A DNA stretch of 32,037 bases from Planctomycetota bacterium (GTDB lineage: Bacteria; Planctomycetota; Phycisphaerae; UBA1845), in contig JAJRWX010000025.1 in NCBI GenBank assembly GCA_024276605.1, forward strand, positions 1 through 32,037. The letters are read 5' to 3'. Below, piece by piece: positions 3,725-32,037 of the stretch; position 1 is the first letter of the stretch; every line of letters begins with the position of its first letter. Under the pieces are notes generated by a model that ran no database searches, was not told the DNA's origin, and worked only from the letters and a program-made list of their open reading frames with translations. A program made the position numbers and the translations under genes.

Positions 3725-5542
3725 TTAGGCGTACTTGCGCTGCCGGTAAAGGTCACTGGCGAGGTTGCTGAGGCTTGTTGCGACGATCGGGCTTTCGTCG
3801 CCAAGTAGCTTGCGCCCCATAGTTATCGCCTGGCGGCGGAGCTTATCCCCCTCGGCGTACTTGCCCTGTTCATTAAGAACCCCGGCGAGGTTATGCAGGT
3901 TTTCGAACACGTCGGCGTGCTCTTCGCCAAGGAGCTTTCGGCTCATGGCCAACGCCTGGCGGAACAGTTTTTCCGCCTCGGCGTATTTACCCTGTTTCTG
4001 AAGGACTTCAGCAAGGTTATGGAGGTTGTTGGCTACGTCGGGGTGCTCGTCACCATGAACTTGTCTGCTAATGCGCAGTGCTTGCTCTGCGAGTGGTAGT
4101 GAGATGTGGTAAAGGCCCAACGAGGTGTAGACACTGCTGATTGTTTGAAACAGCGTCGCCTGAATCAACGGCTGGTCGGACAGCTCTTTGCCAATCCGTT
4201 CGGCGCCTCGGTCCATGATCTCGCGGGCGGTGATCGTGTTACCCCTCGCCTCGCTCGGATCGGATACTTTGAACAGGTCAATCATAAAGTGTTGCACCTG
4301 TTTGGCCGTCTCCGCTTCGCGCTGTGCGTTATCGCGTTCTATAATGGTTTCGGCACGGGCAGTTTCCGCTTCAATACGGGCTTCTTCTGCCTTGATGTAC
4401 AAATGCACGGTCATGGCCAGCCCTGCTGTGAGTGCGACCAATACGGCAGAGACAGCCGTAACCGGGCCTTTGTTGCGACGGATGAACTTCTTGAATCGAT
4501 AACCCGAACTTGGCGGACTGGCGAGGACCGGTTCGTGGTGTAGGTGTCGGCGTAGGTCATCTGCAAATTCGGTGGCTGTGGCATAGCGTCGGGTTCTATC
4601 TTTTTCCAGGGCTTTGATGGTGATCCAATCGAGGTCGCCGCGGAGGTGTTTTGTCAGCGTGTCAGGGTTCGTGTGCCGGTTGTGGGCTATGGTAGCAGAG
4701 TCGGCGACTAGTTCGTCGCCAATACTGCTCAGCTTGGTACTCGGCTTTTGAGGTTCCTGCTCTCGAATCACCCGCCGAATCTCTTCCCAACCGGCTTGCA
4801 TAAGTGTTTTGGCGTCAAAGGGCGTCACGCCGGTGAGTAATTGATACAGTACCACGCCGAGTGAATAGATGTCACTTCGTGTGTCGATGTCCTGGGCCGA
4901 CATCTCCGCCTGTTCCGGACTCATATAGGCCGGTGTGCCAATGAGTTGGCCTTGCAGGGTGTAGATGGTTTTCTCAGAAAGTTTTTGTTCGATGGCTTTA
5001 GCGACACCAAAGTCAATCACTTTGATGATGGATGTGTTGTTACGATATTCCACGAGAATGTTGCTGGGTTTGATGTCTCGGTGAATGATTCCTTTTTGAT
5101 GCGCATGCTGGACGGCTTCACATACGTTGATGAATAGGCTTAGCCTATCCACGATGTTGAGCTTGTGCAGATCGCAATGCTCAGTAATCGGAACGCCGGT
5201 GACGAGTTCCATCACAAAATAGGGCCGACCCTGCTCCGTAGTTCCCGCATCGAAGACTTTGGCCACGTTTGGATGATTCATCATGGCCAGTGCTTGTCGC
5301 TCCGCCTCGAATCGTGCGATGACAGCTTTGGAATCCATCCCCGGTTTGATGACCTTTAGTGCGACTCTTCGTTTGACAGGTTTCGTTTGCTGAGCCAGAT
5401 ACACTACACCAAAGCCGCCCTCGCCGAGTATGTCGATGAGTTTATAATTGGATATTTTTGGTAGTGCCTGTGCAGGTTGCGGTGCGGTTGTTTGCGTCGG
5501 AATATTCAACGGTTGTGTGTCATCCGGCTTGGTCATAACCAT
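3725..5542 (-). CDS. Ser/Thr protein kinase with TPRs, truncated by in-frame TAA
   Basis: 605 residues. An eukaryotic-type kinase domain spans about 33-300: glycine loop GEGGFG (40-45), Lys63 in VALKVI, catalytic HRD 154-156, Asn161, DFG 177-179 and SPEQA near 208-212. All catalytic residues are present, so the kinase should be active. One membrane segment follows at about 358-383, then a Glu/Ala/Arg-rich coiled-coil stretch (385-415) and three KLC-type TPR units. The protein stops at ...RQRKYA followed by TAA, exactly where the repeat consensus continues YAEAEKL; the same frame then runs on for 482 more codons (to 2276). One G-to-T change (GAA to TAA) would explain it. The product would be a membrane kinase with a cytoplasmic catalytic domain and a shortened TPR array. 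Possible regulators or partners are unknown; no partner phosphatase lies nearby. Confidence 0.88.
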
Positions 5543-5617
5543 GCTCCGAACAGATGTGTGCCATAGGTATTCTAATCATAGAGACGGTTGCATACAAACG
5601 GACTAGACATACAAAAC

Positions 5618-6646
5618 CTAACGCCTAGCGACGAAACGATCAAAGTTGACACGGGCTGTCAGATAATCGTCGCGCATAGGCTCGTCATTACAAAGGTCAG
5701 TGGAGAGATACTTCTTATTCGAATCTGGAAGAACCGTTACAATGGTAGCATCCGATCCGTATCGTTCGCTCAGTTGTATGGCACCGATGATGTTTGCACC
5801 GGAGGAGATGCCCACGGCCAATCCCAACTCAGTGCAAAGTTTTTGCGCCATAAGAATAGCATCGCCATCCCAGACATCGACAACCTCATCAAGTTCATCG
5901 AGGTTGATGATGGACGGAATGAATTCGTCAGAAACTCCCTGAATGCGATGCTTGCCCATTTTGCAGCCAGTGCGAAGCGTCGGCGAGTTGGCTGGTTCGA
6001 GCGGATGAACATGCACCGATCTCCCCGCGCGACGTAGGTGCTCACCTACACCCATCACCGTCCCTCCTGTACCAACGCCAGCCACAAAAACGTTTGCGGC
6101 CTGACCGAACATGGCCAGTTGTCGCTCGATTTCCGGTCCAGTAGTCAGGCAATGGGCCTCGACGTTTGCCGGATGGGCAAACTGTCGTGGAAGAAAAACG
6201 TGGTCATGCTCCTTGGCGTATTGCTCAACCAACTCGATTGCACCGACGAATCCCCCTTGCTCACGAGACACGGGAATGACAGAGGCCCCGAAGTTGCGAA
6301 TCAACTGAACGCGCTCGCGGCTCATCCAGTCAGGCATGAAGATACGGACAGGATGTCCCAGTGCCCTACCGATGGCAGCGAATGAAATACCAGTATTGCC
6401 GCTGGAGGTTTCGGCAATTGTGTCGCCGAGTTTGAGTGCGTTAGAGTTGTAAGCGCGGCGCATAATGTGTGCGGCCATGCGGTCCTTAATACTTTCGGTC
6501 ATGTTCATCAGTTCGTATTTGGCGAAGATATGACCGGGCCTGCCATCCAAGCGGAAACGAATCTCAAGAAGGGGGGTATTGCCGATCAGTGCCTGTAGCG
6601 CGTCAACACATGAGTTGTTACCTGTCGATGCGGCAATCTGCGTCAT
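5618..6646 (-). CDS. PLP-dependent cysteine synthase family protein
   Basis: 342 residues from the ATG at 6646, chosen because GAGGGAT lies just upstream and the family N-terminus (ALQALIGNTPLLEI) then falls at 17-30; an in-frame ATG at 6697 would add 17 unlikely residues. It is a fold-type II PLP enzyme: ESIKDR with the Schiff-base Lys54, substrate loop TSSGNTG (80-86), phosphate-binding GTGGT (192-196), GKHRIQG before the active-site region (231-237) and GISSGA (279-284). Known members replace the O-acetyl or O-phospho group of serine with sulfide to make L-cysteine, or make cystathionine. Length fits CysK/CysM. The C-terminus (STDLCNDEPMRDDY onward) is extended by about 20 residues. It stands alone, 75 bases upstream of nothing related. 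Exact substrate is not decidable; cystathionine beta-synthase or a siderophore-type homologue are alternatives. Confidence 0.88.
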   Translation of the reverse strand: MTQIAASTGNNSCVDALQALIGNTPLLEIRFRLDGRPGHIFAKYELMNMTESIKDRMAAHIMRRAYNSNALKLGDTIAETSSGNTGISFAAIGRALGHPVRIFMPDWMSRERVQLIRNFGASVIPVSREQGGFVGAIELVEQYAKEHDHVFLPRQFAHPANVEAHCLTTGPEIERQLAMFGQAANVFVAGVGTGGTVMGVGEHLRRAGRSVHVHPLEPANSPTLRTGCKMGKHRIQGVSDEFIPSIINLDELDEVVDVWDGDAILMAQKLCTELGLAVGISSGANIIGAIQLSERYGSDATIVTVLPDSNKKYLSTDLCNDEPMRDDYLTARVNFDRFVARR

Positions 6647-6941
6647 AATTCTATCCCTCATGACAAAATGTGGTACGCGGTGCGCTTGGCGCCACACGTA
6701 AGGATTTTCTGAAAGGGTAGTACTTCAACGTGGTCAATGCTGGTCATCCAGCGAATCGAAAGTCATGATGGAGCCTAGAAGTCGACATGACCTGTCCATC
6801 GTACATGAGTCCGTCCATGTAGCCGCACATGCTATTCGATTTAGGTGCTAAACAACTTTACCACTGTGAACCGCTTACCCTAATTATTGTAAGTATGCGC
6901 TTCGTGAAACGATTAGGCAACTACATGTATTTTTCACAGAT

Positions 6942-8888
6942 TTACGGGCAATTGGGGACGCAGGTTCCGGTCAGGCAATCCGTTACGCCAAAGCCAAAAT
7001 CACCCCCGGCAAAAGCGATGGCCGCCCGTAAGATGTCCGCACTGGCGATAATGCCATTTGGTGACTTGCCGTCATTATCCACGCGCGATAGGTGCGGTGC
7101 TGAGGTGAGCAACTGAAACTTCTGTAACACAGCGACAATATCGGTGGTGGTGACCAATCCGTCCGGTGCCGTCCATACCCCAGCGACTAACGTGCCTACG
7201 ATATCACCGAATTGTCGACTCGCACTGATTTGGGGTGCTGTAGTAAGAATCGATAGTGATGACGAGAAAGTGACATTGTCCAATGTGGTTTCGACCAAAT
7301 ATTCATTACCTGGGACAACCTCACAGCCACGAACGTGGATCACCGAATCCGTCCAGTCACAAAACTCGGCGTTCTGTACCAATGTGCTAAGCTTGCCATC
7401 TATACCTGCGTCTTGCAACGTGCAACTCACATACCAAGGTGTGGCCGCACCTAAGCGGGTTACGCGCAGTGCCGAAAACCGTCCTGTATTGGTACTGGGA
7501 TCAAAGGATAAGTAACGATCTTTAGTTACATCAAATGGCGCGGGAGCGGGCAAAGGAGCATTCAGTTGATCAAAGCAATCAAATGATGTGCTACCCAACG
7601 ATAACTCTGACAGAGTAGGTGGAGGTCGGGAGAACACGCCGATACCACCAATGCCAAGCGTGCTTGTCATGGATGATGGTACGTTGACGAGCGTTGTCAT
7701 CTCTACGTAACCAACGCGAACCCAGGACGGCTCTAATCCCTGCGGGCTGAAGTTGGATCCACCAAAATTTGTAATCACACCACTACCGTTATCAAAGGTG
7801 CCTTCATTGAGTTCTGGAAAACCAGAAGTATGAACTAGAGAAGAGGCTTGAAAAACACTGGGATCAAAGGATAAGTCGGTATATATACCCGTGACGCCGG
7901 TATTGATAGCGCCTAGGTCACTGGTCCAAAGTTCGACCACGAAAGTGGAAGGGACATTGTTCGGTTCACAAATGCGTCCTGGCAATGAGCCGGGTTGATC
8001 AGACACTTCGAGTGTGTTTGGTGAGGTAAATGGAATCAGTCTTAACGCCACATCCGTAAAACTTTGTTTGGCTGTCCATACCAAGGCATTGGTCAGCATT
8101 TGATCGCCGTCGGATGCGGCATCCCAATAGAGCGTACTCACATCACTAGAAGGGGGATAAAATCCCAAGTCAACGCGCCGCCCGGGAAGGTCTTCTCGAT
8201 AAGCCATAAGCGGTGCACCATCATCCCATTGGGCTACCATTGTCCCACCGCCGGATAGCATCTGCGTAGTCGGCCGCGCACTCAGTAATCCACCGTCGAA
8301 CGATGAAACACCATTGACCAGCACATGCGTAGGATCGTTGATGGTTCCTAAGCTAGCCGGGCCTGCCATGCTTTCTAGTTTAGGAACAATCACCTCATAA
8401 CCGTCCGTTTCCCATCGGCCCGCAATAAATCTACCGGCTATACTGCTGGTGTTGGCAAACACTGCGACAACCACACCACCACCGCTGTCAACATAATCAG
8501 CTAAATTATCACCGAGCGCAACAGCATCCAAGAAGTCCAGATTACTCCAAACGAGTATGGCATCGTATAATTGCAAAGTAGGTAGCGTAGGTGTTACCAA
8601 TCCAGCGTGGATAATGTCCACGCTACTAAACAGACCAGTCGCTGACAATTTGTCTCTTACGTCGGTAAATAGTGCATCTGAAACATTCGCAGAGGCCGAG
8701 GCTACGATGGCGATATTTGACCCACCCATGACGGCTAATTGATTGGATAAAAAGTTATCACGCAATCCATCCGGTTCCCCAGCCTGCGATACTTGCACGA
8801 TCACCGCGCAGCATGTGAGCATGGTCAGCCAAGCGTTCGTAGTCGTGTATCTATTCTTGCTTCTCATATCCCTCAAATTCACTTTCAC
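6942..8888 (-). CDS. Secreted GATase-like / cohesin-like protein with dockerin-like tail
   Basis: 648 residues, last gene of the minus-strand cluster. The frame starts with GTG at 8888, one base after the DUF1501 stop; an ATG at 8867 (MRSKNRY...) after GAGGGAT is an alternative start. An N-terminal signal peptide ends near VSQA|GEP. Residues about 55-270 resemble a glutamine-amidotransferase-like Rossmann domain, as in ThuA-like or trehalose-utilisation-type proteins: NIAIVASAS, YDAILVWSNLDF, YVDSGGGVVVAVF. Residues about 280-450 look like a cohesin-type beta-sandwich (DLSFDPSVFQASSLVHT, VRVGYVEMTTL). The C-terminal 100 residues carry two helix-loop units, TTTDIVAVLQKF and SADILRAAIAF, with NDG, resembling a degenerate dockerin. 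It ends in a Cys-containing tail (CLTGTCVPNCP). Extracellular scaffold or surface role is inferred; no catalytic residues were recognised. Confidence 0.65.
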   Translation of the reverse strand: MKVNLRDMRSKNRYTTTNAWLTMLTCCAVIVQVSQAGEPDGLRDNFLSNQLAVMGGSNIAIVASASANVSDALFTDVRDKLSATGLFSSVDIIHAGLVTPTLPTLQLYDAILVWSNLDFLDAVALGDNLADYVDSGGGVVVAVFANTSSIAGRFIAGRWETDGYEVIVPKLESMAGPASLGTINDPTHVLVNGVSSFDGGLLSARPTTQMLSGGGTMVAQWDDGAPLMAYREDLPGRRVDLGFYPPSSDVSTLYWDAASDGDQMLTNALVWTAKQSFTDVALRLIPFTSPNTLEVSDQPGSLPGRICEPNNVPSTFVVELWTSDLGAINTGVTGIYTDLSFDPSVFQASSLVHTSGFPELNEGTFDNGSGVITNFGGSNFSPQGLEPSWVRVGYVEMTTLVNVPSSMTSTLGIGGIGVFSRPPPTLSELSLGSTSFDCFDQLNAPLPAPAPFDVTKDRYLSFDPSTNTGRFSALRVTRLGAATPWYVSCTLQDAGIDGKLSTLVQNAEFCDWTDSVIHVRGCEVVPGNEYLVETTLDNVTFSSSLSILTTAPQISASRQFGDIVGTLVAGVWTAPDGLVTTTDIVAVLQKFQLLTSAPHLSRVDNDGKSPNGIIASADILRAAIAFAGGDFGFGVTDCLTGTCVPNCP

Positions 8889-8889
8889 A

Positions 8890-10422
8890 CTAACGACGTG
8901 ACCTTGTTTGTTTTATTGTCGGCGTGGATAAGCGCGCAGCCGAGTTGCTGATGACGCCTAATTCATCCAGTACGGGTGGTGGCTGTTCGGCTGATGTTTT
9001 GAAGATGACATTATCAATCACCGACTGATCGACCAGCAACCTCTTTCTTAATACTTCGCTATATACCGCCCGATAGTCGATGGTGGTTCGTATGGCATCA
9101 CTGTCGATGGTTAAGGCGGGATCAAGCCCTGCCCACCCATCCGCACCACCTAGCGTTTGCTTGGCATAGACGCCACCGTTGATACTTCCACCCATCAGCA
9201 TCATCAGCCCGCCATTACCATGATCCGTTCCGCCGTCAGCATTTTCGTTAATCTGCCGACCAAATTCTCCCTGGCAGACCAATGTGATTCGATGCCAATC
9301 ATCTTGCAGGTCGACACGAAACGCAGCTAAATTTTGACTAATGTCCTTCAAGCGGTCGTACATACCGCCTCCTTTGAAGGTGCCGATCGTCGCATGGTTA
9401 TCCCAACCGGTGCGGTCGGTATACACGACTTCCACATTGACGCCACCTCTAATAAGTGCCGCAGCATTTAACAAACGCTGACCAAATGATGAATTTGTAT
9501 ATCGCGCATCAGGATGGGGAGAGATAGGCACCTGTTGCAGCAAATCGATAATTTCAAATGCGTTTAATACGCCGCTTTTGAGTGGATCCTGACTTTGGGC
9601 GGCATATCTGGTTGACAAAATATCACTACGCTGTTGGGCCGTTGCCGGATTACCTGGCAATACAACTTCGCTGAGCGCCTGAAAAGCTAACGTTTTCTCT
9701 GCAAAAGCAAGCATTTTGGGGACTAAACGATTGGAAGAAAAAGCGGCACCGCGTAGCGGACTACCCAAGCTTGGGGCAATGTTCAAATATCTCGCCAGCC
9801 AACCCGTAATGTCTGTTTGTGGTTGATTGGGTGTACCAAATTCTATCAAGGCCTCGGCTGAAAAATGCGAGCGATTGGTATCCGGTGAGCCGGCAGCGGG
9901 AATAAACGCAACTTCTCCCGCCTGATAAAATTCAAAAATGGTATTCCGATCTTCCACACCCAGATATTCTCGATCATGATAGGCTTTGTTGATGCCAAAT
10001 GCATCACTACCCACATTACCCAAATGTAAACATCGTTGTGCGCTCAGGTCCGGATCATTGTCATCGGGTGGACTAATGCCGATGGTTGGTCGAAGACCAT
10101 CTGCGAAAAATTCCGCCCCTGAATTGTACGGCGCGGCATATAGCCAAGGATCGCTATAGGGTATTAATTGAGAAAGCAAATCCGGACCACCACGCCAAAA
10201 ACAGGACACGAGAATGTCCGGCTGAGCACCCTGTTGACCAACAGCTTTCGAAAGCGAAATACCCGGAAGCACATGAGAAGCAGCTACGACGCCGGCGGCT
10301 GCGGCTGCAGATCGGCCCATGAATGCGCGACGCGTGATTTCACGGTATTCGTTGCAGGCAAAATGATCGTCACGATATCCGTCATTGCGATCGAGTTGAG
10401 CTATGTATTGTGGTTTGTCCAT
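8890..10422 (-). CDS. DUF1501 family secreted protein (Tat leader)
   Basis: 510 residues. A twin-arginine leader is visible: TRRAFMG at 30-36, followed by an Ala-rich hydrophobic stretch (AAAAAGVVAASHVLPG). The mature part matches DUF1501, a family with an alkaline-phosphatase/sulfatase-like fold: CFWRGGPDLLSQLIPY, HLGNVG, PAAGSPDTNRSHFSAEA, GGVNVEVVYTDRTGWDNHA, LVCQGEFGRQINEN, and DHGNGGLMMLMGG near the C-terminus. The Asp/His-rich motifs are where metal ligands sit in the superfamily, but enzymatic activity is not established for the family. It lies 65 bases after the DUF1800 gene and directly before the cohesin-like gene. DUF1800-DUF1501 neighbours are common in planctomycetes and other bacteria and are thought to work together; their substrate is unknown. 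Folded export across the inner membrane is expected. Confidence 0.9.
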   Translation of the reverse strand: MDKPQYIAQLDRNDGYRDDHFACNEYREITRRAFMGRSAAAAAGVVAASHVLPGISLSKAVGQQGAQPDILVSCFWRGGPDLLSQLIPYSDPWLYAAPYNSGAEFFADGLRPTIGISPPDDNDPDLSAQRCLHLGNVGSDAFGINKAYHDREYLGVEDRNTIFEFYQAGEVAFIPAAGSPDTNRSHFSAEALIEFGTPNQPQTDITGWLARYLNIAPSLGSPLRGAAFSSNRLVPKMLAFAEKTLAFQALSEVVLPGNPATAQQRSDILSTRYAAQSQDPLKSGVLNAFEIIDLLQQVPISPHPDARYTNSSFGQRLLNAAALIRGGVNVEVVYTDRTGWDNHATIGTFKGGGMYDRLKDISQNLAAFRVDLQDDWHRITLVCQGEFGRQINENADGGTDHGNGGLMMLMGGSINGGVYAKQTLGGADGWAGLDPALTIDSDAIRTTIDYRAVYSEVLRKRLLVDQSVIDNVIFKTSAEQPPPVLDELGVISNSAARLSTPTIKQTRSRR

Positions 10423-25892: not shown

Positions 25893-26255
25893 GCGCTACG
25901 CTTTCAGATAGGATTTTCCATTGGTTGTACCTTCAGGTTGTCGTTCTATGATGATTATTCATTATATCTTACTGACATTCCACAAATGGTAGGTGTCGAA
26001 TCTGAGTCAGGTATTCCCATTTATCAATGTACTTGTAGCCATCGTACCTAATCGACCCTTTGATTCAAGCGGAACCGATTTTGCTGCTGTTAATCGCACC
26101 TCATTGCCAATGACGCAGCCATCGGCTTGCGACGGAATGTGCGACAACCTACATCGCGCGTCAGAACAGCTTGCCCCATTGCTTGCCGCGATTACTGGCA
26201 AACGTATTAAACCACCGGCATCTTCTGACAAAAAACAACCTGTATATAAAAAAAA
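25893..26255. other. Intergenic region, no gene seen
   Basis: About 360 bases upstream of the histidine kinase. One plus-strand frame (25993-26283) has a GTG start but no ribosome binding site or known sequence. I see no clear promoter for the kinase here apart from AT-rich stretches. Confidence 0.4.
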
Positions 26256-26316
26256 CCTTACTGCCTGTAAGTGCTTACACTGACAAGAGTAAGGCATTAT
26301 TGACAACGGTTGTCAA
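26256..26316. repeat. Nested palindromes beside the tRNA-Glu relic (attachment-site-like)
   Basis: Three dyads lie within 61 bases. An outer pair CCTTACT (26256-26262) and AGTAAGG (26288-26294) encloses the palindrome TGTAAGTGCTTACA (26266-26279). A perfect 17-base inverted repeat TTGACAACGGTTGTCAA (26300-26316) follows, ending four bases before the tRNA relic. Four GTAAG-type half-sites plus a strict dyad next to a tRNA 3' end resemble recombinase binding sites. Confidence 0.45.
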
Positions 26317-26320
26317 CAAC

Positions 26321-26391
26321 CACCCCCAAGGGGACTCGAACCCCTGTCTCCAGGATGAGAACCTGAATACTACCAGTCCTAACTCGTTACA
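26321..26391 (-). tRNA. Degenerate tRNA-Glu(CTC)-like relic
   Basis: The 3' half is intact: anticodon arm TCAGG-TTCTCAT-CCTGG (26350-26366, anticodon CTC), variable loop of four, T arm AGGGG-TTCGAGT-CCCCT (26329-26345), acceptor strand TGGGGGT and discriminator G (26321). The 5' half is damaged: a GTTAGGAC D-arm-like stretch is followed by about 8 extra bases, and no ACCCCCA acceptor strand is found upstream. CCA is not encoded. A site of tRNA-targeted integration or a decayed tRNA is likely. Confidence 0.45.
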
Positions 26392-26601
26392 CAATAAGGC
26401 ACTTACGAATACCGATAACTCCGCTTGCCCTACTGCTTGCCACGAAAATAATAATGGCGACAATGAAGATAAGGTGGAGCAACTCGTAATGGCCATCGAA
26501 TCATTGACTCCGGAAGAACGAAAACGACTCTTGGTCTATCTGATCGGTGGAATCTGAAATATATAATGTTGGGGACTAAGATAACTCGTAAACAGAGGAC
26601 T

Positions 26602-27913: not shown

Positions 27914-28600
27914 CTACCGCCTCAATATCTGTGCTATTGTCTGATGTCGCCATGTGTTATTGCCTGCCTTGGTGGGGATGTTGCGTTCCGTAAGGGTATT
28001 GGCGATGCGTTGCAGGGTGAAGCCCTTGTCTCTCATCGCGGTGATTTCACTGACTATGGATTGCTCCGGCTCGTTTGGTAGCAGCGTGGCTCCATCGTCA
28101 GCTAACGTGTAGCCGTAGGGGATCGTGCCGATACGCTTACCGTTGGCACGCTTAACAGCCATAGCGGCTTTGGTGCGTTCTCTTGTTAGGTTGCGTTCCA
28201 TTTCAGCTGCACCGGCTAACACGACCAGCATAAACCGTCCGGCGGCGCTGGTTGTATCAATGGCGTTACCGCCAAGGTCAACCACGTGCAACGCAATCTT
28301 GGCTTTATCCCATCGCTCAACCGTCGTGAGACAATCGCCAGCATTGCGGAAGCCACGGTCCAGTTTGAGCATGATAATACTGGTGGCTTTGCGTTTCTTG
28401 AGCATATCGAGCAATCGCGCACCACCAGCACGACTACCCAACGGCTTACCGCCCGACACACCGGCGTCAGTGATAATCTCAATCAATCGTAAATCTTTGA
28501 GCGAGCAATAGGCCCGGATGCGCTGTTGTTGCGCATCCAAACCTAACCCGCCATCCGCTTGCTCTTGCGTTGAACATCTTGCATATCCGATAGCGTTCAT
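27914..28600 (-). CDS. Serine recombinase (resolvase/invertase type), short
   Basis: 228 residues from the ATG at 28600, chosen because GAGGGGGAAAGCC precedes it; a coupled ATG at 28615 overlaps the upstream stop as ATGA. The resolvase catalytic domain occupies about 1-140: YARCST with nucleophile Ser10, LDRGFRN (80-86) and GAAEMERNLTRERT (130-143) with the conserved arginines. The large-serine-recombinase domain that follows (about 150-225, GTIPYGYTLADDG, HQTIAQILRR) is short, and there is no zinc-ribbon/coiled-coil C-terminus, so it is smaller than typical phage integrases. It is likely to resolve or invert DNA of the island, or excise it at the att-like palindromes 1.3 kb away. Last gene of the ArdC operon. 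Confidence 0.85.
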   Translation of the reverse strand: MNAIGYARCSTQEQADGGLGLDAQQQRIRAYCSLKDLRLIEIITDAGVSGGKPLGSRAGGARLLDMLKKRKATSIIMLKLDRGFRNAGDCLTTVERWDKAKIALHVVDLGGNAIDTTSAAGRFMLVVLAGAAEMERNLTRERTKAAMAVKRANGKRIGTIPYGYTLADDGATLLPNEPEQSIVSEITAMRDKGFTLQRIANTLTERNIPTKAGNNTWRHQTIAQILRR

Positions 28601-28611
28601 GGCTTTCCCCC

Positions 28612-29283
28612 TCATGCGGCTTGCTTGGCGTTATAACGACGTAAGGTATCCGGTAACTGGTCGATGCAATCCCGAATGTTGTTACCACGTAAATCGACGC
28701 CACACTTGCCCTGCACGTAGGCTAGGAATTTGAAACCATCAGGAATCGGTAAACCGACTTCGGATGCAATGCGCTTCAAGAATTCGGCGATAGCTGGAGC
28801 GCTGGGCTTACGGAATCTAAACCTACGCCATCGGCTAAACAAGCCGTCAACATCTTGTGCCCACGTTACCGATGTTGTAGTCGCTACGACGAATACATGG
28901 CTAGGCAGATTCTCTAGGATACCCAATAGCATCCGTTGGCAGTCTCTATTGAGGTGTTGAATCTCGTCGATGATGTAGCATCGTCTGCCACTATCACCCC
29001 AACCGAATTGTAACATGCGTGATGATAAGTCTCGAAGATCGGCAACCGTACACGCGCGGCTATCAATCCGCTCAATCGAAAAATCATCACAACCTAGCTG
29101 CTTGGCGGTTACATAGGCTGCACTGGTCTTGCCACAACCGGCTATACCATCGGATTCAAATAGCCATCGTTCGCCACAACCATCGAATAGCCAAGAGTCA
29201 CCACAAGCCGTCTGTATCTCGTCTATGATCGGTTGGCCGATGAACGCTTCCCACGTTGTCGGTCGGTATCGTTCGCTTAACAT
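28612..29283 (-). CDS. Clamp-loader-like AAA+ ATPase
   Basis: 223 residues. N-terminus SERYRPTTWEAFIGQ matches the RFC small subunit/DnaX opening. Walker A is GIAGCGKT (46-53), Walker B IIDEI with Asp106/Glu107, sensor 1 at VATTTSV, and an SRC-like segment LFSRWRRFRF (148-157), where clamp loaders keep the arginine finger. The usual C-terminal collar domain is missing, so it is much shorter than clamp-loader subunits (about 320+ residues). It could be a helicase-loader-like or DNA-remodelling ATPase for the element's replication, or a phage/plasmid clamp loader. Its stop overlaps the recombinase start region (ATGA), and its own start overlaps the ArdC stop as TAATG, pointing to translational coupling. 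Confidence 0.85.
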   Translation of the reverse strand: MLSERYRPTTWEAFIGQPIIDEIQTACGDSWLFDGCGERWLFESDGIAGCGKTSAAYVTAKQLGCDDFSIERIDSRACTVADLRDLSSRMLQFGWGDSGRRCYIIDEIQHLNRDCQRMLLGILENLPSHVFVVATTTSVTWAQDVDGLFSRWRRFRFRKPSAPAIAEFLKRIASEVGLPIPDGFKFLAYVQGKCGVDLRGNNIRDCIDQLPDTLRRYNAKQAA

Positions 29284-30128
29284 TAGGCTACCGCCTTTCC
29301 GATTGCCTTGTGGTCAAGGTCGTCGATGATGTCGCGTGCTGTCTTGGAGATTCGGTCCAGACTCGCCCGTAAAGCTTTGGAGTCGCCATCCCACAAGGCG
29401 ATATAGCGCGATGCCCTTACTTCCACGTCTAAGCCGCAGTGCATACATACGACATAGGCTACGCTTTCCGCTTCCAATTCGGCCATACTTCGCGTGAGCG
29501 CTCCACGATTCGTCTTGTGTAGGGCTTCGTGGGCTAACTCATGGGCTAGCGTCTTAGCCTGTTGGCCGGTTGGGTGAGTATTGTCTACTTCGACGATGCC
29601 ACCCTTGGAAACACCGAACAAACCGCCCGAAAGACTGGCGAAATTGACGCGAATACCACGAAGATGCGCCACGCTAACCAACTGGGCGAGTAGATCATCG
29701 GCGATATGGTCAATAGTCGGAACGTCAACGGTTGGTAGGTCCGGACCGTCTGTCTGGGCAATATCGAATACGTGGACAGCGCGGAAGAAAACTCCGTCTT
29801 CGGTTTCTCCGTTGTCGTTTTCCTTGGAGTACGGACAAGGCGCAATTATCATAATCCCATGCTCACCCTTGCGCACTTGGCGGTTTAGTTTCTTCCACGA
29901 CTGATAGCCAGCGACTTGCGTAGCCGATGGGCATTGCATGGCAATCAGCATGGTGTTATTCCACGAATACTTATGGAATCGGGCTTGAATGTTGAGGTAA
30001 TCGGTGAATATCTTGGATGCTCTTACCTCGTCGATAGCTTTGGCTAGTGTGTTCAATCTTTCGTCGATTGATTGCACTAACCGTTTCTTTTTGTTGGCTG
30101 TTTCCTGTTTCCGTTGTAGACTTGTCAT
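29283..30128 (-). CDS. ardC: ArdC-like antirestriction protein with metallopeptidase domain
   Basis: 281 residues. Residues about 38-125 match the ArdC N-terminal single-strand-DNA-binding domain (DUF1738): FHKYSWNNTMLIAMQCPSAT, VAGYQSWKKLNRQVRKGEHGI. Residues about 135-280 hold an ImmA/IrrE-like metallopeptidase with HELAH at 196-200 (two His ligands and catalytic Glu) and a downstream Glu-rich helix (AELEAESVAYVV) that provides the third ligand. ArdC proteins protect incoming plasmid DNA from restriction. First gene of the coupled operon; a TTGACA promoter lies 80 bases upstream. The long basic N-terminus (RKQETANKKKR) is atypical but fits DNA binding. Confidence 0.88.
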   Translation of the reverse strand: MTSLQRKQETANKKKRLVQSIDERLNTLAKAIDEVRASKIFTDYLNIQARFHKYSWNNTMLIAMQCPSATQVAGYQSWKKLNRQVRKGEHGIMIIAPCPYSKENDNGETEDGVFFRAVHVFDIAQTDGPDLPTVDVPTIDHIADDLLAQLVSVAHLRGIRVNFASLSGGLFGVSKGGIVEVDNTHPTGQQAKTLAHELAHEALHKTNRGALTRSMAELEAESVAYVVCMHCGLDVEVRASRYIALWDGDSKALRASLDRISKTARDIIDDLDHKAIGKAVA

Positions 30129-30211
30129 GGCGTTTGCTCCTTCAGTAGCAGATGCCCACGGCCACGGATGTTAGCGCATCGCGTGGCCACTATTGTAATC
30201 AACACACTTCA

Positions 30212-30239: not shown

Positions 30240-30617
30240 GTAAAATATCCATAACGGGTCGGTTGTGGCAAAATCATCACTGACAACAACGTAGCAACGG
30301 TTGGTTATTTGAATACCGTTTCCGCCTTGTTTTCGTGTTGTTTGCACGTTGATTGTCGCATAGAATGATGCGTGTGATGATGCCAGAACAACGACACAAG
30401 ATTACGAAAAACATCGGTCAAGGTTTCTCAGATAGCGGCTTGGCCAGAAACGTAACCACACCCCCACCCCCAAAATGCAGCGGGACTCCGTACTTAACCC
30501 TTCCCCCTTGTGAGTGGTTTATGATATATACGTTTGCAAAATCAAGCTTTGAAAAAAATCTATATATAAAATTGCGTGAAAGTGACACAACAGTGACACC
30601 TTAAAGGATGAATAGCC
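30240..30617. other. AT-rich intergenic region before the 102-residue gene
   Basis: It separates the divergent ardC operon and the plus-strand hypothetical gene. A C-run (CACCCCCACCCCC near 30463), AT-rich TATATA stretches and the direct repeat AGTGACAC-AAC-AGTGACAC (30581-30599) stand out. An open frame 30353-30604 lacks a good start and is not called. Confidence 0.45.
30581..30599 (+). repeat. Direct repeat AGTGACAC x2, 11-base period
   Basis: Two exact 8-base copies lie 11 bases apart, one helical turn, 19 bases upstream of the start codon. An operator or iteron-type binding site is possible. Confidence 0.4.
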
Positions 30618-30926
30618 ATGAGAAGAAAAGCTAAGAAACGTTTGAAGTTGGAAATGCAAGAGAACGGCCTATGGGACGAATTCGTTCGGCGTCGTGAGGC
30701 ATTGAAGCGTGAAGGCGTATTGCCAGGTAAGCGCTGGATACAGGCGGCAATTGCGGTGGGCGTTATTGATGAAGATTCGAGTCACCTTGATGACCCCTAC
30801 GTGCGGGATGAGGGGATGCCCGAACCTATCGGAGACGAGCTACCGATTAGTCTATTGCGCCTGTACGGATGGGATAAGAATACATTCCCACAGAAGCAGT
30901 CAACACAAACACCGAGGCAAGCGTAA
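30618..30926 (+). CDS. Hypothetical protein, 102 residues
   Basis: AAAGGATG lies eight bases upstream of the ATG. The N-terminus is very basic (MRRKAKKRLKLEMQENGLWDE), followed by a helical segment (FVRRREALKREGVLPGKRWIQAAIAVGVI) and an acidic, Pro-rich C-terminus. I recognise no family. Its place between an antirestriction operon and a toxin-antitoxin pair suggests an element-borne accessory gene. Confidence 0.6.
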   Translation: MRRKAKKRLKLEMQENGLWDEFVRRREALKREGVLPGKRWIQAAIAVGVIDEDSSHLDDPYVRDEGMPEPIGDELPISLLRLYGWDKNTFPQKQSTQTPRQA

Positions 30927-30964: not shown

Positions 30965-31249
30965 CTATTTGAATAAGTCATCTTTTACACCATCTTTTTC
31001 GGTTAGCTCAAAGGCTCGGCGTAGTGCGTTCACGTATACATTTGGTACATCTTGCTGATGTTTGTGTGGAATTGGATATGTCTCGCGTGTCCGGGACTTG
31101 CGTGATAGGCCGACAAAGCTTCCGTGAGAACCTTTCCCTTTATCCTGGTCCCACAGGATATTATAATTCTTGTTAAGGATGCGCTTCAATTTACGAAACT
31201 TCACGAGCCAGCATTCTTCTTTATGCCACTTCCAATTGTCGAACATCAA
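30965..31249 (-). CDS. HicA-like toxin
   Basis: 94 residues. The HicA/YcfA double-stranded-RNA-binding-like pattern is visible: FRKLKRILNKNYN, then KGKGSHGSF with the conserved Gly-Ser-His (40-42; His42 is the catalytic position in HicA ribonucleases), then YPIPHKHQQDVPNVYVNALRRAF. HicA toxins cut mRNA. The ATG at 31249 overlaps the HicB-like gene by 29 bases, and the usual order hicA-hicB is reversed here. The N-terminus has an extra 16 residues compared with short HicA proteins. Confidence 0.65.
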   Translation of the reverse strand: MMFDNWKWHKEECWLVKFRKLKRILNKNYNILWDQDKGKGSHGSFVGLSRKSRTRETYPIPHKHQQDVPNVYVNALRRAFELTEKDGVKDDLFK

Positions 31250-31571
31250 AACTTTCTGCTTCGGCAGGGAGTCCTCCGACCCCTTTGCGTCTGGAAATGA
31301 TACGCTCGATTAGTTCTAGTGGGAGCCGTTTGGCGTGCTCCAGTTTTTCCCAATACTTGCGCGGGGCATCACGAAAACAATTAGCCTTGTGTACTGCACC
31401 GGATTCCATGGTAGTCGAGATCAATTCAAGTAGCAGGTCAACAGCACCTTCCACCGTGTCATCGTCGGCGATAAGGTCCATGTTCAGGCAGTGCGCAGTG
31501 AACGCGCCTACATCCGAACATTCTGACGGGTAAATCACGATAAACAATTGTATATAACCTGGCGCACCCAT
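31221..31571 (-). CDS. HicB-like antitoxin
   Basis: 116 residues. The N-terminal half has the HicB partial RNase-H-like fold pattern: FIVIYPSE, FTAHCLNMDLIADDDTVEGAVDLLLELI. The C-terminal half is helical and basic (LEHAKRLPLELIERIISRRKG), where a DNA-binding or toxin-binding segment would sit, but no clear HTH or ribbon-helix-helix is seen. It overlaps the HicA-like gene and has GAGGGAAG upstream of the ATG. It is inferred to neutralise the toxin. A -10 box (TATAAT) lies at 31620-31625. Confidence 0.55.
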   Translation of the reverse strand: MGAPGYIQLFIVIYPSECSDVGAFTAHCLNMDLIADDDTVEGAVDLLLELISTTMESGAVHKANCFRDAPRKYWEKLEHAKRLPLELIERIISRRKGVGGLPAEAESFDVRQLEVA

Positions 31572-31899: not shown

Positions 31900-31917
31900 A
31901 TGTTGTATACTGTAGGC

Positions 31918-32037
31918 GTGCATATTGAGCGAAGACAATGGAAGTCCAAGAACGGTAAGACCTACCTGTCCATCCTACTGCGCCACTCCTATCGCGAAAA
32001 CGGCAAAGTCTGCAAACGAACCATCGCTAACCTGACC
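31918..32037 (+). CDS. IS1634-type transposase, N-terminus (cut by window end)
   Basis: The frame is open from GTG 31918 (or an in-frame ATG at 31900) to the end of the window. The 40 residues read VHIERRQWKSKNGKTYLSIL, then LLRHSYRENGKVCKRTIANL. This 'GKTYL-(x)n-SYRENGKVxKRT-xANL' pattern is the N-terminus of IS1634/IS4-superfamily transposases. A TATACT -10 box at 31906-31911 lies only six bases before the GTG, which would make the transcript nearly leaderless. The DDE domain lies beyond the window. Confidence 0.75.
   Translation, partial: MHIERRQWKSKNGKTYLSILLRHSYRENGKVCKRTIANLT

Follow-up and report, generated by a model that had tools for sequence, protein, structure and literature searches.

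The closest described systems are the ardC establishment operons of conjugative plasmids, as in R388 (PMC7213743) and in pLS20 with its EGeRS1 sequence (PMC8708921). In these operons ArdC comes first and provides a promptly needed antirestriction, and a conserved structured sequence lies just upstream of the ribosome-binding site and recurs ahead of several operons of elements of that kind (PMC8708921). I analysed a stretch of 32,037 nucleotides from a Planctomycetota bacterium (contig JAJRWX010000025.1; hereafter, the window) in which these features recur. In contrast to the plasmid operons, the present system belongs to integrative islands and phages of planctomycetes, the operon continues from ArdC into genes for an AAA+ ATPase and a serine recombinase, and the leader is a single 41-nt hairpin downstream of a good promoter rather than 400-600 bp as in EGeRS1. 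ArdC establishment operons and integrative islands are known; the variant in the window is new. An earlier sequence-only reading of this stretch knew of no named system with this gene order, and none was found in the literature searched, where queries on ArdC with a serine recombinase, on phage satellites and on planctomycete defence islands returned nothing. As far as that literature shows, a planctomycete element of this kind is undescribed. The operon and its upstream region consist of the following parts.

30128-29283, minus strand: ArdC-type gene (ORF of 281 aa)
29283-28612, minus strand: collarless clamp-loader-like AAA+ gene (ORF of 223 aa)
28615-27914, minus strand: small serine recombinase gene (ORF of 233 aa)
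30154-30194, minus strand: 41-nt hairpin leader between promoter and start codon, stem at about 30160-30190 (covariation)
30239-30212, minus strand: promoter TTGACA-16-CATACT (position conserved in relatives)
30249-30266, minus strand: putative operator dyad ACAACC-GACC-CGTTAT just upstream of the -35 box (upstream comparison)
30314-30347, minus strand: three 11-bp iterons with an AAAC core (shuffles and comparison of loci)
30441-30511, minus strand: conserved G-rich block GGGGGTGGGGGTGTGGTT, the outermost part of the upstream similarity

The reading frames, the TAATG junction between ArdC and AAA+, the ATGA junction between AAA+ and the recombinase, and the promoter are all as the sequence-only reading had described them. 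Matches to the promoter pattern number 12 against 6.9 in shuffles, and isolated matches are frequent by chance; the window promoter is set apart from these because relatives keep its position. The three genes are likely a single transcription unit behind the conserved promoter and the hairpin leader, as had been claimed. Farther upstream, the dyad is perfect in some relatives (ACAACC..GGTTGT). The AAAC iterons occur in three to four copies in 9/10 loci, and the three copies of the window were reached by 1 of 2000 mononucleotide shuffles.

Is this gene order common in Planctomycetota? A set of 100 related genomes was searched with the AAA+ and with the ArdC protein, followed by an analysis of the neighbouring genes. 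The order ArdC, AAA+, serine recombinase on one strand was found at 15 loci in 13 planctomycete genomes: G000, G392 (two), G402, G405, G411:C461, G412 (two), G413, G425, G430:C200 and G483, and, from another family of the phylum at about 30% identity, G022, G120 and G247. This count takes in loci with small intervening genes, a broken ArdC (G405, G412:C252) or an ArdC truncated at the contig border (G430); beyond the 15, contig ends interrupt several further operon loci. Since the same order recurs on one strand at so many loci, it is not due to chance. Thus, the co-occurrence that the sequence-only reading had proposed looking for is present, and the genes are not scattered in relatives. Between the window and a copy from the same genus, dN and dS are 0.067 and 1.02 for ArdC, 0.054 and 1.06 for AAA+, and 0.047 and 0.91 for the recombinase, corresponding to a dN/dS of about 0.05-0.07 per gene. 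Some loci depart from the order: AAA+ stands alone in G427, ArdC is missing in G307, and AAA+ precedes ArdC in G409:C243. The third position can hold a tyrosine enzyme, as in G398:C14 (Pfam Phage_integrase, 7.7e-34). ArdA (PF07275, 3.5e-44) lies between ArdC and AAA+ in G411:C461 and replaces ArdC in G411:C33. A zinc-ribbon protein is encoded between ArdC and AAA+ in two further loci (L092 10664-11158, with a sub-threshold Pfam match, and L095 4771-5595). G392:C5 carries two near copies (L080/L081) with about 90% identical DNA and a common convergent gene of 178 aa after the recombinase; one of the two has lost AAA+.

Matches in Pfam, PHROGs and NCBIfam bear out the names given to the three proteins. 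The first protein is of the ArdC type, in agreement with the sequence-only reading. Its N-terminal domain, of the ssDNA-binding type, matches Pfam ArdcN above the gathering cut-off (1.2e-11; 45.3 bits against 22.6), and its C-terminal domain is zincin-like with an HExxH motif (Peptidase_M78, 4.2e-6). The residues of this HExxH-plus-Glu metallopeptidase site (H196, E197 and H200 with E217/E221) are invariant among 15 sequences, viral ones included. The sequence match to the solved ArdC structure (PDB 6i89) is weak (E 0.057). The predicted antirestriction role is supported indirectly by the exchange with ArdA. It is known that antirestriction by the R388 ArdC is independent of its own protease activity (PMC7213743).

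The second protein matches AAA (3.7e-6), dnaX_nterm (9.1e-17) and the phage clamp-loader family phrog_5846 (1.3e-23). Its AlphaFold (AF2) model has a pLDDT of 90.9, and the best solved structures found by Foldseek are the E. coli gamma subunit (1njg) and archaeal RFC domains 1 and 2 (2chg, 223 residues), with a TM of 0.73; the best named viral structural matches are clamp-loader-like proteins as well. Thus, the protein consists of domains I and II of the gamma/RFC-small type with the clamp-loader motifs. It stops where the collar would start, and its best full-length match covers RFC domains 1-2 only, confirming the lack of a collar noted before. It shares the fold of these domains, the motifs, the SR finger and the sensor 2 Arg with DnaX gamma, RFC small subunits and phage clamp loaders (phrog_5846, phrog_168). 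In contrast to these, the absence of the collar is a fixed feature of the family, whose members have similar lengths of about 211-232 aa. Two types of AAA+, 69-92% and about 30-38% identical to that of the window, occur on the same ArdC/recombinase backbone. In type 2, Asn replaces the Walker-B Asp; Walker A, the Walker-B Glu, sensor 1, the SR finger and R204 are conserved, type 2 included. Could this be a plain dnaX fragment beside replication genes, the case that the sequence-only reading had named against itself? A broken dnaX is ruled out by the fixed length, the purifying selection and two more clamp-loader-like loci elsewhere in the source genome, but replication genes do lie in what is apparently the same island. 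The prophage-like region L177 encodes, after its related AAA+, a second protein that matches the RarA/MgsA C-terminal domain below threshold (E 1e-5), and collar-like parts may come in trans in that region; the window showed no gene of this kind. The role of a clamp-loader ATPase without its assembly domain beside a recombinase is raised as a testable question.

The third protein matches Resolvase (3e-33) and, at domain positions 3-50/102, the first half of the Recombinase domain of large serine recombinases (5.4e-8). Thus, it is a short serine recombinase, as had been read from the sequence, and lacks the full Recombinase domain, zinc ribbon and coiled coil of the large enzymes. The residues S15, R13, R87, R90, E140, R141 and R147, among them the catalytic Ser and Arg residues, are invariant in 16 sequences. 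Its size (within about 180-240 aa), catalytic residues and short C-terminal DNA-binding part are shared with the resolvases and invertases. Unlike theirs, its DNA-binding part is similar to the first half of the large-serine-recombinase domain. Near the gene, no res site was found, and relatives have no common sequence downstream of it.

The most informative feature is the hairpin leader, which the sequence-only reading missed. It is under compensatory selection: in 13 loci, 99.3% of the cells are paired and 7/11 pairs show double changes, against 34-43% pairing in slid controls. A covariance model of the leader (R1) has matches, some of them weak, in 24/100 related genomes and places the leader before ArdC in most operon loci, even where identity has dropped to about 30% (G483); at the G120, G247 and G022 loci it finds none. 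Rfam has no match to it. The model also finds the leader at four viral loci (L187, L202, L199, L200). Elsewhere, the leader lies ahead of genes for an HNH protein, a transglycosylase and, in a prophage-like region, a MoxR-like AAA protein, and ahead of a small gene accompanied by a tyrosine integrase. Therefore, the leader is a common mark of several mobile-element operons, comparable to EGeRS1 on pLS20 (PMC8708921). Its placement between the -10 box and the ribosome-binding site suggests that it acts as RNA. With it, the short list of known controls on establishment genes gains a structured leader; being easily searched, the hairpin is also a handle for finding defence-carrying islands and phages in Planctomycetota. 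Leaders before unrelated mobile-element genes were seen in L135, L137, L139, L140, L151 and L174, and G438 has three copies about 400 bp apart.

The surroundings of the operon in the window include the following features.

26321-26366, minus strand: 3' half of tRNA-Glu(CTC), attachment site at one island end (intact copies elsewhere)
26367-26557, plus strand: tail of a tyrosine-integrase reading frame that continues in phase across the tRNA fragment (bulk of the gene at C63 7458-9095)
26785-27165, plus strand: small conserved gene convergent with the operon (also in G392:C82, G430:C200 and G438; remnant in G392:C23)
30618-30926, plus strand: small divergent gene (common to the G392:C82 copy, 54% aa)

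The sole other copy of tRNA-Glu(CTC) in the source genome is intact (contig C63, 9041-9115). Its right flank is syntenic with G393, where the site is unoccupied (intact tRNA at L098:10603-10677), and its left flank holds a tyrosine integrase gene (7458-9095), a CHC2-DnaB_C primase-helicase gene (5436-7367) and a DnaD-like gene (4886-5485). The reading frame of the integrase extends into the tRNA and is continued at the opposite end, in the window. The attachment repeats, the integrase and the unoccupied site in a relative identify an island integrated in a tRNA gene; that the window end and the C63 end are one island is inferred, because both contigs break and no sequence joins them. The sequence-only reading had regarded the operon as self-contained. 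Rather, it is one block of a larger island, which at its apparent other end encodes a tyrosine integrase, a primase-helicase and a DnaD-like protein of its own. The serine recombinase was considered as the island's integrase and set back, as the tyrosine integrase sits at the tRNA; the serine enzyme is probably not the integrator. Tyrosine integrases were also found at the G483, G411:C461 and G430 loci, and by eye the G483 and G430 frames end in tRNA-like sequence. No tRNA adjoins the G402 copy in the sequence examined, and the primase-helicase was not found in most operon-carrying relatives. Unoccupied sites for the G392 copies were sought in G000/G393, where the flanks lie on different contigs or have diverged. 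SCCmec, with Ccr and the CCPol-MP-Cch2 replication operon (PMC7581432), likewise combines a serine recombinase, replication genes and variable cargo. In contrast, the window island lies in a tRNA gene with a tyrosine integrase, its serine recombinase is of 230 aa and not a large Ccr, and its replication genes differ in kind (CHC2-DnaB_C primase-helicase). An SCC element was rejected because Ccr/rlmH integration does not apply; the site is tRNA-Glu and the C63 integrase is of the tyrosine type.

The cargo after the recombinase includes type III restriction-modification (G412), BREX (G425, a few small genes further), HmaA-like helicase (G483) and STAND-like (G411) genes. In a small control, 0/10 large host proteins matched defence genes; other operon loci lack a defence gene at this place. 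Among viral relatives, contig L196 has the order AAA+-ArdC-x-x-serine recombinase, and contig L186 has AAA+-ArdC together with DnaB and terminase. In the pieces of the window's island that were examined, no structural or packaging gene was recognised. A single-protein viral scan with the window AAA+ as query gave no match.

It is likely that the operon is the establishment and early-replication block of integrative, phage-like planctomycete islands, some with defence cargo. When element DNA enters the cell or leaves the chromosome, the operon would be switched on through the dyad, the iterons and the leader. ArdC (or ArdA) would shield this DNA from host restriction. The collarless AAA+ may serve replication of the element by borrowing or remodelling the host clamp loader or clamp, or by assisting some other element protein at the expense of ATP. 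The small serine recombinase would resolve multimers arising from replication, a role that fits because the element has its own replication genes, and the tyrosine integrase would carry out island integration; cargo beside the operon would vary, with anti-phage defence in several relatives. As judged from homology, the operon probably helps incoming DNA to survive, replicate and resolve, and the modes of action of AAA+ and the recombinase are predicted. The term establishment, already used in the sequence-only reading, is strengthened by ArdA joining or replacing ArdC and by the leader, which marks the operon as part of a regulon. A bolder proposal is possible but doubtful: the hairpin would be an establishment-regulon mark common to phages and integrative islands across several Planctomycetota families, and the core operon would join the collarless ATPase and an exchangeable site-specific recombinase in an ATP-driven machine that links replication of the element to resolution or recombination.

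Alternatively, the AAA+ might use ATP to control synapsis, choice of site or direction by the recombinase, as IstB/TnsC-type ATPases do for transposases, so that the operon would move itself and its cargo. The ATGA coupling of the two genes, their adjacency in nearly all loci, even with a tyrosine recombinase, the presence of several copies in one genome (G392), with different flanks and a similarity that ceases at the recombinase stop codon, and the variability of the cargo right at the recombinase end are consistent with this. However, no convincing shared ends, direct repeats or target duplications were found around the recombinase gene among the operon copies compared, the window island has its own tyrosine integrase, and the AAA+ groups with clamp loaders, not with the IstB/TnsC families, and in viral contigs mostly lacks a neighbouring recombinase. 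These points make such a module unlikely. The operon might also be a remnant, within decayed prophages, of the early region of a temperate phage genome, without an island life in its own right, since close relatives of the type 2 AAA+ occur with the leader in IMG/VR contigs and terminase is present in L186 and in the L177 prophage-like region. This is distinctly unlikely, as strong purifying selection acts on the copies in bacterial genomes, which adjoin defence cargo and have no recognised phage structural genes around them in the stretches examined, and the island has its own primase-helicase and integrase. That the three genes are themselves an anti-phage system within defence islands, as the directly neighbouring BREX, type III restriction-modification, HmaA-like and STAND-like genes could suggest, is highly improbable: PADLOC has no match for AAA+ or the recombinase and only a weak capP match for ArdC, ArdC and ArdA are counter-defence families, and the leader regulon includes phage genes. 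Thus, the establishment block of an integrative island is the preferred reading.

The attachment site of that island has further peculiarities. The tyrosine-integrase frame spans it (window 26171-26557; G000:C63, L295, 7458-9095), and integration exchanges the last ~63 integrase residues, leaving the catalytic domain whole. According to a review, integrases that disrupt their own gene occur only in archaea (PMC8371274); in contrast to these, only a tail is exchanged here. Integration at the tRNA-Glu site seems to have happened more than once, since the left flank holds integrase-like remnants. On the chromosomal side of the tRNA fragment, positions 25993-26320 hold a remnant similar to integrase residues 475-543. 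Near another operon copy, in G392:C82 (L078 16700-17120), the 3' half of a tRNA-Arg(CCT) lies inside a remnant integrase gene. On the other side of the operon, the window holds two small overlapping genes resembling a HicA/HicB pair (30965-31571, minus strand; phrog_353 toxin, E 0.007 only) and the start of a frame that by eye resembles IS1634-type transposases (31900-32037, plus strand), inside which the contig ends.
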